Origin: Deltaproteobacteria bacterium
GTDB taxonomy: Bacteria > Desulfobacterota > Desulfobacteria > Desulfobacterales > C00003060
Assembly (NCBI GenBank): GCA_003647275.1
Contig: QMMN01000003.1
Span: forward strand, 1 to 64,000
Direction: 5' to 3'
Length of the DNA stretch: 64,000 nt
Made by a program: the position numbers and the translations under genes. Below, piece after piece: positions 972 to 6,777 of this stretch (positions are counted from its first letter, which is position 1; each line of letters begins with the position of its first letter). The notes under the pieces were generated by a model. It saw nothing but the letters and a program-made list of their open reading frames with translations. It did not search any database and had not been told where the DNA came from.

Positions 972-1529
972 TCACTTAAAAGGGGGGCCAAAAGGGGGAC
1001 CTTCGAGAACGCACCTCTTTGCAGCGTTATAGTAATCTCGCGCCATAAACTTATCGGTAATATATGGTAGTTCATCCACGATATCCTTCATGCTCTTTTT
1101 TTGTCGCTCCCGTAAATCCCAAACTTGCAGATATCGTTCATAAAGTTCTAAGTTGAAATCTTGATCCCGAACACGTTTGAAATAATGTGAGTGAAGTTCC
1201 TTTTCCTTCAGCCACTTTCTTCTCAATGTGAAGAATTCAATTTCTGGGCCATCCCACCCGTCCCATTCCCATGATTCAGTAATTTCACCTTTCTTACCAT
1301 CGCTGATAATTTTCTTGAGCTCACTTATAATGCGTGTCTTTGAAAACCTGAGATCAATTTCGAGAGTAAATTTTTGTGGTAAACCCATCTGGACAACTCG
1401 TACAGGTTCTTGAGGTAATGGGCTTTGCATTATAAGATTTTTATAATTTTTTTTTGTATATTCAAGGTGTCTTAATGCAAATTCTCTATGAAGTTGCGTT
1501 GCCTTGGTCCTGATATTTTCTTTTAGCAT
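972..1529 (-). CDS. Hypothetical protein overlapping the integrase gene
   Basis: A 185-residue protein with no recognised domain. It is rich in Lys and aromatic residues, with a predicted mixed helical character and the tail GPPFGPPFK. Its ATG lies inside the 3' end of the integrase gene (44-base overlap), preceded by GAGG nine bases upstream. It is probably expressed from the integrase transcript. Position next to int suggests an element-specific accessory gene, but nothing in the sequence defines its job. Confidence 0.55.
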   Translation of the reverse strand: MLKENIRTKATQLHREFALRHLEYTKKNYKNLIMQSPLPQEPVRVVQMGLPQKFTLEIDLRFSKTRIISELKKIISDGKKGEITESWEWDGWDGPEIEFFTLRRKWLKEKELHSHYFKRVRDQDFNLELYERYLQVWDLRERQKKSMKDIVDELPYITDKFMARDYYNAAKRCVLEGPPFGPPFK

Positions 1530-2703
1530 TTTCTTTGTCCTCTGGTTGTTTTAAGAAATTTTCAAGTCTCTCAATAGTTTTTTGCCCACTATCCAGCGCA
1601 AGATGAGCATATCTTTCCGTCATTTGAAGTGTTGAATGACCAAGTCGCTCCTTGACCACATAAAGGTCTTCACCTTGTTGAACCAGCCAACTCGCATAAG
1701 TGTGTCTCAGAGTGTGAAAGACGACCTTATCACGCCTATCTGTAATACCATCATTCAAGCCAAGCTCTTTGACAATTCGTTCAAAAGCTCTTGAAACTTC
1801 ACGCCGTTGGTTTCCACCAGGGCCAGGATAAATCAGATCGTTCGCCTTCCCGGGTATTTTGCCCAAAAACATTTTTTTTACTTCCGTGGTCATGTATGCG
1901 ATGCGCGTCTTGGTATTTTTGGAGTCTTTGACGATCATCTGCCCTCGACTTGTATCAATGTCGATCCATGTTAAGCGAAATATCTCACTCGCTCTGAGTC
2001 CCGAATGGAGGCTTAAAAGCGCCATTTCCCAAGTTTCTGGTGACTCCTGTTGCAATTTTTTCAAAAGACTGTCAGCCTCTTCACGCGTCAGAAAACGGAG
2101 GCGCTTGTTGTCTACCTTTGGCATTTTCACTTTCTTGACCGGGTTGTCGCCTGTAAAGAGGTTGTTCCGATAGGCAAAATTGAACACCTGGCGCGTCACG
2201 GCGAGAGCATATTGAACACTGCGGGGGCTCAAGTCGGCCCGCTTCATCCGACTTTTGATTTTCTCAAGGTGAATAGGCGCGATTTCGATCAAGGTGAGTT
2301 TACCCAGGGTAGGGGAAAGCCACTTTTTGAAAAGGCTCCGCTCCCTGTTATATGTTTGAGGGTCTTTGTCGGCTTTAGTTTGCGGAAAATACCGCTCATT
2401 AAAGATTTCGGCAAATGTGAGGCCCTCTGTGGCCCTAATTTCACGCTCGTTCTTTGCAGCCTCGCGCTTCTCGGCAAGTGTGACGGCCCCTTCGCCTCTT
2501 TTTTGGGCTCGCTTGAGTCCCGCTAGCTCAAGGGCCGCTTTTTGTGCGCTCCAACCGTCGGAGGCCCATCCAAGGCCCTCTTCGCGAAGTTTCCCTTCAT
2601 GAAAATATCTAATAGTGAAGTAACGATCAAAAGCGACTCCATGTTTTCGCGTCCGATGCTTCCTGTACCTGACCCCCGGAAATGTTGTTTTGTGCCATTT
2701 CAT
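1486..2703 (-). CDS. int: Tyrosine recombinase (integrase) of an integrative element
   Basis: A 405-residue site-specific recombinase. The N-terminal arm-binding and core-binding regions (about 1-190) precede a catalytic domain. Catalytic residues are visible in order: R237 (HSGLRASE), a Lys near 259-265, H330 and R333 (HTLRHTYAS), H356 (GHS) and nucleophile Y365 (ERYAHLA). I chose the ATG at 2703, with GGAG upstream, because the protein then begins at the usual start of this family; an in-frame extension to 2763 looks spurious. The gene points away from the tRNA fragment at 2960-3017, the layout of elements that insert into tRNA 3' ends. It should drive integration and excision of the element lying to the left. 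Confidence 0.93.
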   Translation of the reverse strand: MKWHKTTFPGVRYRKHRTRKHGVAFDRYFTIRYFHEGKLREEGLGWASDGWSAQKAALELAGLKRAQKRGEGAVTLAEKREAAKNEREIRATEGLTFAEIFNERYFPQTKADKDPQTYNRERSLFKKWLSPTLGKLTLIEIAPIHLEKIKSRMKRADLSPRSVQYALAVTRQVFNFAYRNNLFTGDNPVKKVKMPKVDNKRLRFLTREEADSLLKKLQQESPETWEMALLSLHSGLRASEIFRLTWIDIDTSRGQMIVKDSKNTKTRIAYMTTEVKKMFLGKIPGKANDLIYPGPGGNQRREVSRAFERIVKELGLNDGITDRRDKVVFHTLRHTYASWLVQQGEDLYVVKERLGHSTLQMTERYAHLALDSGQKTIERLENFLKQPEDKENAKRKYQDQGNATS

Positions 2704-2959
2704 GTCAAAAAGCTCCTTATCTTTCTGGCTGTCCCAAAAATCCCTCGGGCTGTCCCAATCCAAAAAGAGGAGTTTTCTCCGACTTTATTGAAGTCCCTCG
2801 GGCATTCTGTCCCAACATAGTCCCAAATTTTTAGCTGAAAGTAGGTTATTTTGAATGACGTTATGTGAAGGAAGGATAACAGATAAGGCTATGAAATGTC
2901 AAGAAGAAAATGGCAAGAAATGACGAAAAGTGAAAGTATAGGAAAATGGCAAAAATGGG

Positions 2960-6347: not shown

Positions 6348-6584
6348 TTAACCCAGGAGGTCAATAATATGCTCTTCACCTGAACCCCGGTTGGGTATAT
6401 CTCGTGAATCAGTTTCCTTCTTCAAATCGGATTCATCTGGCAAATTTTCAAGAGATTCTACGGGATTAACCTTCTTTTCAACAACATCCGGGGTGGTCTC
6501 ATGAAGCCCCTCTATTTGGTCTTGCACGGCGTTCGGATTGTCTTTATTCAAGTTTGTTGCCACATTACCGATCCCTTCAATCAT
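6348..6584 (-). CDS. Orphan 78-residue acidic protein under a GEMM-I riboswitch
   Basis: A small, soluble, acidic protein rich in Asp, Glu, Asn and Pro, probably largely unstructured. It has no cysteine, no signal peptide and no known domain. AAGGAG lies seven bases before the ATG. The gene starts 28 bases after a terminator hairpin that is preceded by a GEMM-I riboswitch aptamer (6666-6766), so its expression should respond to a cyclic dinucleotide by transcription attenuation. It is the only gene before the next terminator at 6195-6217. A role in surface, motility or electron-transfer behaviour is only an inference from the usual targets of such switches. Confidence 0.7.
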   Translation of the reverse strand: MIEGIGNVATNLNKDNPNAVQDQIEGLHETTPDVVEKKVNPVESLENLPDESDLKKETDSRDIPNRGSGEEHIIDLLG

Positions 6585-6611
6585 TGTTTATCTCCTTATC
6601 TTAAGGTTTGT

Positions 6612-6651
6612 GCGAAAAGAAAAAGCCCATTCTCCTCCCGAAAGAATGGGC
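6612..6651 (-). terminator. Expression-platform terminator of the riboswitch
   Basis: On the minus strand GCCCATTCT pairs with AGAATGGGC (6625-6651), followed by TTTTTCTTTT. It lies just after the riboswitch aptamer and just before the ribosome-binding site of the 78-residue gene, the expected place for ligand-controlled termination. Confidence 0.85.
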
Positions 6652-6665
6652 GCAAGTATTTAAAT

Positions 6666-6766
6666 TATCCATCGGTTGGGCAGCCCCGCTACCCGTCTTT
6701 TGCGGACCGGAGGCTTTGCGTCCCACCCTTTCGGGCGGTTTGCCTTTTTCACAAGCCGTCTTATCT
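6666..6766 (-). ncRNA. GEMM-I cyclic-dinucleotide riboswitch aptamer
   Basis: Read on the minus strand, the sequence carries the conserved GEMM-I core. It has GGCAAACC, a stem capped by a GAAA tetraloop (CGCCC-GAAA-GGGTG), GGGACGCAAAGCC, the second stem CTCCGG...ACGGGTAGCGGGG acting as tetraloop receptor, and CCGATGG at the end. These are hallmarks of c-di-GMP-I riboswitches. In Desulfobacterota, a variant class of the same fold (GEMM-Ib) prefers 3',3'-cGAMP; the GG before CAAACC hints at c-di-GMP, but I cannot settle ligand choice by reading. A terminator and the 78-residue gene follow. Confidence 0.93.
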
Positions 6767-6771
6767 TGATC

Positions 6772-6777
6772 ATTATA
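6772..6777 (-). promoter_or_regulatory. -10 element for the riboswitch transcript
   Basis: A perfect TATAAT on the minus strand lies six bases before the aptamer, so the transcript would start almost at its first base. The matching -35 region is weak. Confidence 0.5.

Follow-up and report, generated by a model that had tools for sequence, protein, structure and literature searches.

A candidate one-gene flagellar-regulon cassette with a sigma-28-type start and a predicted c-di-GMP OFF riboswitch in series

A locus on the minus strand of a Deltaproteobacteria contig, from an uncultured bacterium of the sulfate-reducer type, is probably a one-gene cassette of the flagellar regulon, in which a FliA-dependent start and a c-di-GMP OFF switch stand in series (we put the probability of this reading at about 0.62). 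It lies in a window of 64,000 nucleotides, the whole stretch of DNA analysed (contig QMMN01000003.1, positions 1 to 64,000), and unlabelled coordinates refer to that window. As background, c-di-GMP generally governs the change between swimming and settling, and sigma-28 serves as the general late-flagellar checkpoint.

According to the proposed mechanism, RNA polymerase with sigma-28 (FliA) would start the transcript, so that the RNA would be made only after the flagellar checkpoint releases FliA. A c-di-GMP-I aptamer would then form soon after the start. As long as no ligand is bound, hairpin P2 of the aptamer would be invaded by the 5' arm of the terminator downstream, probably from the GAAA loop of P2, and the resulting 16-nt antiterminator helix would let transcription proceed to the gene (ON). 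Binding of c-di-GMP would hold P2 and its docked tetraloop in the aptamer and leave the terminator arm to pair with its own 3' arm and stop transcription (OFF). Such a FliA start combined with a ligand-dependent OFF would place the 78-aa product in motile, low-c-di-GMP cells. The protein thus appears to be made only with an active flagellar sigma factor and, most likely, when c-di-GMP is low.

Results

Layout of the one-gene unit

The sigma-28 (FliA)-type promoter occupies 6802-6775 (-), with a -35 TAAA at 6802-6799 and, after 16 nucleotides, a -10 GCCGATAT at 6782-6775. With an inferred transcription start at about 6768, the c-di-GMP-I (GEMM-I) aptamer (6753-6675, -) begins ~15 nt into the RNA. 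It includes hairpin P2 (CGCCCGAAAGGGUGGG, 6737-6722, -), the proposed first strand of the antiterminator, and is followed by the intrinsic terminator of the expression platform at 6651-6615 (-), a stem at 6651-6625 and then a T tail (-16.3 kcal/mol, z -2.75). The 5' arm and loop of this terminator (CCCAUUCUUUCGGGAG, 6650-6635, -) make up the proposed second strand. A ribosome site, AGGAG (6596-6592, -), lies upstream of a 78-codon ORF with an ATG start (6584-6348, -), the product of which is acidic (pI 4.28). About 130 nt past the stop codon, a second intrinsic terminator at 6217-6187 (-; stem 6217-6195, T-rich tail, -10.5 kcal/mol, z -4.20) closes the one-gene unit. Both terminators were recovered by a scan as well as by folding. 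The earlier note, made from the sequence alone, had described a single gene for a 78-residue acidic protein between an aptamer-associated terminator and another terminator, and all three elements were found here. Elsewhere in the window, close to the contig start, a 425-aa ORF at 1486-2763 (-) resembles a tyrosine-type integrase and may mark the border of an integrated element.

Expression platform and switch direction

P2 and the terminator arm with its loop are complementary over 16 nt in the window, with 15 of 16 standard pairs, and the duplex reached -24.9 kcal/mol (z -4.5 against dinucleotide shuffles). An antiterminator through the 3' strand of P1 (GAUGG/CCAUU) offered about 5 bp by eye and was set aside in favour of the 16-nt P2 pairing. 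Almost all sigma-28-class leaders of the genus had their best-pairing stretch on the terminator 5' arm, whatever the downstream gene, whereas the sigma-54-class leaders of the genus lacked such a stretch. Standard pairs made up 78% of positions in register across the genus leaders and 39-61% when the strands were slid against each other. When arms were permuted among the genus loci, 276 Watson-Crick pairs were observed against 265 ± 3.5 (p 0.004), and with G-U pairs included, 324 against 320.5 ± 2.3 (p 0.10), the 30-odd platform cases being non-independent because the genus leaders share ancestry. In a swap test with one locus per distinct P2 (25 types, with other Desulfobacterota and Nitrospirales included), own pairs averaged about -17.5 kcal/mol and swapped ones about -15.2 ± 0.5; in each of ten replicates, not one of 2000 permutations did as well. 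Changes on both sides of the helix can be read directly at locus L207 (P2 ..AGACAGGG, arm UUUUGUCUUUU) and at locus L138 (P2 CAUUCGUAAGGAUGGG, arm CCCAUUCUUCGAA). Among the cross-phylum matches listed, P2 complementarity was clear in several Desulfobacterota and two Nitrospirales and absent in most others, and it is therefore no universal feature of GEMM-I.

Fold energies were computed with tertiary contacts and kinetics left aside. Once the arm and loop are exposed but before the 3' arm follows, the antiterminator fold reached -52.4 kcal/mol and the fold that keeps P2 -39.3 kcal/mol. For the full-length leader, the antiterminator fold (-55.2 kcal/mol) and the terminator fold (-50.2 kcal/mol) differed little, and some sister leaders had the terminator as the more stable full-length fold, so the direction of the switch depends on co-transcriptional kinetics. 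The terminator begins ~24 nt beyond the aptamer without overlap, and the two can coexist. In the Cd1 riboswitch, docking of the P2 tetraloop is needed for ligand binding (PMC9262584). Since P2 and the docked tetraloop belong to the ligand-bound aptamer, the ligand should block the antiterminator, and from this fold and the co-variation of P2 we predict that the window leader is an OFF switch.

The same parts might instead form an ON switch, in which the ligand favours read-through as in pilM of Geobacter and the protein serves a sessile or surface-attached state. Geobacter has ON switches of this fold (PMC9262584), multihaem cytochromes follow sister switches, and the sister leaders with a more stable full-length terminator would fit such a direction. 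However, the pilM terminator uses strands of the aptamer, whereas the window terminator lies clear of it, and here it is the P2 antiterminator, backed by co-variation, that excludes the aptamer. We consider an ON switch unlikely.

Aptamer class and predicted ligand

The GEMM-I aptamer that the earlier note had claimed, with a covariance search as the check, scored above the cut-off in two Rfam families. With cmscan, RF03167 (c-di-GMP-I-GGC) matched over its full 80 positions at 6753-6675 (-) with 66.9 bits (E 1.2e-13; gathering score 59 bits). A covariance-model search with RF01051 (c-di-GMP-I; cut-off 35 bits) gave 71.3 bits at 6754-6676 (-), and since the aptamer passes this model too, with a bit score that is slightly higher, the GGC subtype call is not exclusive.

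The selectivity nucleotide, placed by alignment to the published pilM and Vc2 numbering (PMC9262584, PMC6274999), is G at 6744 (G20 in Vc2 numbering; A14 in pilM). From this G, the ligand of the window aptamer is predicted to be c-di-GMP; the A that marks GEMM-Ib (cGAMP) aptamers at this position is replaced by G here. The GGC triplet was found in 45 of the 56 genus aptamers with a readable triplet, and AGC in three: G008 (C84:14892-14971), G021 (C218:5170-5248) and G004 (C117:25489-25579). The A-type aptamers of G008 and G021 are leaders of orthologues of the 78-aa gene, while G019, close to G008, keeps G. These natural G-to-A changes are a possible shift from c-di-GMP to cGAMP.

The earlier note had left the choice between c-di-GMP and 3',3'-cGAMP open, which is fair for the fold in general; the window nucleotide is of the c-di-GMP type, though two orthologous switches carry A. 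That 3',3'-cGAMP is the natural ligand of the window leader is quite improbable in our judgement. The same fold does serve cGAMP in Geobacter (PMC8835794), and the A of the G008 and G021 leaders would suit it. The position influences selectivity without being a hard filter, with A there permitting cGAMP (PMC9262584, PMC6274999), and the window shares its G with most of the readable genus aptamers.

A sigma-28-type promoter

The window promoter fits 11 of 12 sigma-28 consensus positions, and all 12 orthologues fit at least 10 of 12. What the orthologues conserve is TAAA-N16-GCCGATA, whereas TATAAT, which overlaps GCCGATATAAT, is not conserved. The arrangement TAAA-N15/16-GCCGATAA thus stands upstream of the gene, is kept in orthologues, and occurs in a genome that encodes FliA (277.7 bits, above the curated cut-off). 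The FlgM gene of this genome, whose product is likewise above its curated cut-off, lies on contig C4, separate from the 78-aa gene. In the genus sample (22 genomes, GEMM-I in 21), 25 of 70 aptamer upstreams scored at least 11/12, compared with 3 of 3550 shuffles. In the own genome, a FliA-like promoter precedes each of the five GEMM-I aptamers, in one case with TCAA as -35. A strict pattern found 10 sites in this genome, four of them at GEMM aptamers, and the reversed control pattern found four sites. The flagellin genes of two relatives are preceded by the same sigma-28-type motif, and the mapped motile-phase promoters of Bdellovibrio read TTAAG-N16-CCGATA (PMC3627812).

Beyond the genus, one genome per species was scanned for CCGATA followed by an aptamer core, with the -35 absent from the pattern. 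Among the matches listed, such sites occurred in many phyla, and a perfect TAAA stood at 15-17 nt in 32 of 81 sites, where about one is expected by chance. Among these matches, sigma-28-like boxes at fixed spacing before GEMM-I were seen in Rubrobacter, Thiobacillus, Pseudalkalibacillus, Armatimonadetes and others (L136-L215), and in Nitrospira TCAA serves as the -35 of such a box.

A promoter -10 box had been noted at this locus before. The element exists and is of sigma-28 type; the earlier -10 was probably the unconserved TATAAT that overlaps it. A housekeeping sigma-70 promoter with TATAAT as -10, the flagellar link being coincidental, would be very unlikely: apart from the overlap of TATAAT with the -10 region, a sigma-70 site scan found no site on the minus strand of the locus, the orthologues keep GCCGATA with TAAA at 16 nt and not TATAAT, and the perfect TAAA recurs at the independently scanned sites among the matches listed. 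A generic sigma-70 promoter was therefore dropped.

The main flagellar cluster of the own genome shows few sigma-28-like sites, a point against the flagellar reading. A strict promoter matrix, over-fitted to the spacer, gave almost no matches over this cluster, and a looser scan gave one plausible sigma-28 site (C2:116063).

A second group of genus aptamers stands behind sigma-54-type sites (TGGCAC-N5-TTGC). A second GEMM-I class (L016, L017, L019-L025 and others; genus g1) stands before genes for large secreted fibronectin-like proteins, and sigma-54-type sites lie upstream of several of its aptamers. These leaders yielded no terminator, and the GCACCUC that follows the aptamer could base-pair with the ribosome site GGAGGUGC, which suggests translational control.

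The 78-aa protein family

The product contains neither Cys nor an aromatic residue. Its family has a conserved core, D-V-x-x-x-K-V-N-P, and the C-terminus IIDLLG. Twelve homologues were found, all within the genus; outside it, searches of a 96-genome order sample and a 389-genome class sample yielded no significant homologue. In Pfam and NCBIfam, the protein had no match at cut-off. The protein is predicted to be disordered: AlphaFold2 with four sequences returned no secondary structure (pLDDT 59, pTM 0.11). In all 16 closest same-length orthologue pairs pN was below pS, with dN/dS of ~0.3-0.7, and by these sequence comparisons the family is genus-restricted and under purifying selection. Although it had been called an orphan, the protein is not isolated: it exists in 12 copies, all within the genus, and in two cases a mini rod-protein gene follows on the same strand.

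The earlier note had proposed looking for homologues near other GEMM switches, and 11 of the 12 copies do stand behind an aptamer; the remaining one, in G005, keeps promoter and gene with the aptamer reduced to a remnant. Neighbours are lineage-specific (HU; a TsaD-like protein; a zinc-ribbon protein; phosphatase-like and LigD-like proteins, all by eye save HU), and since they vary between lineages, the unit of promoter, switch, gene and terminator appears to move as a cassette. Two genomes carry a decayed second locus, L071 (G013:C492) and L270 (G018:C70), in which the sigma-28 promoter is joined to the 3' part of the gene, the aptamer and gene start having been deleted. That the RNA itself is the product, a FliA-driven c-di-GMP sponge ending at the first terminator like the proposed merRNA and with the gene incidental, has a precedent in that abundant c-di-GMP-riboswitch RNA of motile cells (PMC3627812) and would suit the strong, immediate terminator, but it is hardly probable given that purifying selection acts on the gene, which retains a good ribosome site, accompanies the cassette into several genomic contexts and persists where the aptamer is gone.

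Two identities for the protein were tried and rejected: a FlgM anti-sigma-28 factor (no PF04316 match) and a rod or hook axial protein (no Flg_bb_rod or Flg_bbr_C match).

Flagellar neighbourhood and sister switches

In G001 and G009, the gene that follows the 78-aa gene on its strand codes for a 116-aa product carrying the domains Flg_bb_rod and Flg_bbr_C. In G001 this rod-protein gene follows ~74 nt behind, and the genes for PilZ and FlgM proteins are divergent from the pair. By eye, the 78-aa protein and the 116-aa mini rod protein are similar at their ends (MI.. / ..ESIIDILG), a likeness too short to count.

The earlier idea of a signal devoted to one protein did not hold, as the own genome has five GEMM-I switches and the genus has many, including ones at hook, rod-like and FliD-like genes. 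Sister switches of the sigma-28 type precede FlgE-like hook proteins, another mini rod protein and FliD_N proteins, and further targets encode collagen-like and coiled-coil secreted proteins and multihaem cytochromes. A second orphan family behind such switches comprises proteins of ~115 aa that start with MNITDT, carry a QAGQFRRP motif and end in WA; its members are L011 (G000:C55), G007:C56, G004:C51 and G009:C173. The own-genome member had no Pfam or NCBIfam match. At L084, tandem GEMM-I aptamers (G007:C209:1951-2025 and 2116-2192) stand before a gene for a protein with a PEP-CTERM-like terminus.

Given the flagellar genes beside it in two genomes and among the targets of the sister switches, the 78-aa protein most likely serves as a small, disordered accessory in the assembly of the flagellum or an axial structure, an assignment made by neighbours and not by homology, as no homology to flagellar proteins was detectable in Pfam or NCBIfam. 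FliA, FlgM and FlgL-like genes are present in the own genome (G000; C2:111364-111753 and elsewhere). No true flagellin was found in this genome (96% complete, 172 contigs), its single Flagellin_N match being FlgL-like, and this too speaks against a flagellar role. Most of the compared genomes are draft assemblies of uncultured bacteria. The missing flagellin may be hidden between contigs; alternatively, the structure could be something other than a standard flagellum.

Discussion

A recurrent module

The reading of the locus shifts from an orphan under a GEMM switch to what is probably a sigma-28-driven, c-di-GMP-repressed member of a flagellar small-protein regulon. One short RNA appears to read both sigma-28 and c-di-GMP, and the pairing of the two recurs across phyla. 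We tentatively suggest, at somewhat less than even odds, that sigma-28-started, P2-invading c-di-GMP-OFF riboswitches are a recurrent two-key module (checkpoint AND low c-di-GMP), a portable cassette on flagellar, small-protein and cytochrome genes in Desulfobacterota. In this reading similar platforms extend to Nitrospirales, and the sigma-28 half of the pairing is also seen in Actinomycetota, Bacillota, Armatimonadetes and Thiobacillus-type Proteobacteria. The cassette yields candidate late-flagellar accessory genes, including two new small-protein families. It also proposes a concrete OFF mechanism, in which the terminator arm would attack the aptamer's own tetraloop hairpin. The natural G-to-A changes in orthologous leaders offer a way into how ligand specificity evolves.

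Comparison with known systems

The P2-invading platform is a different anatomy inside the known c-di-GMP-I riboswitch class. Cd1 of Clostridioides difficile is a c-di-GMP-I OFF switch of a flagellar operon (PMC9262584). The window leader shares with it the aptamer class, a terminator compatible with the aptamer, the OFF direction (predicted in the window) and flagellar targets, and the computed folds likewise set this terminator against a competing antiterminator. They differ in the antiterminator: in Cd1 it takes up the aptamer-stabilising strand A near the aptamer 3' end (T + A + H), whereas in the window the 5' hairpin P2 would be invaded and the aptamer 3' strand gives only a short, weak match by eye. 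Unlike Cd1, the window leader also has a sigma-28-type promoter and a single small target gene.

Among the former Deltaproteobacteria, Geobacter is related to the organism studied here. Its pilM riboswitch is of the ON type, with strands of the aptamer taken up into the terminator, so that aptamer and terminator exclude each other (PMC9262584). The window leader resembles pilM and other GEMM-Ib riboswitches in its fold and in the presence of several switches per genome (PMC9262584, PMC8835794). pilM has A at the selectivity position, and the window leader differs from it in G20, in a terminator free of overlap with the aptamer and in the predicted OFF direction.

The promoter can be compared with the FliA regulon of Bdellovibrio, whose mapped promoters match the window motif, and a c-di-GMP-riboswitch RNA, merRNA, is expressed in the motile phase of that organism (PMC3627812). 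merRNA is without a downstream gene and is not listed as FliA-driven (PMC3627812), whereas the window switch precedes a conserved gene.
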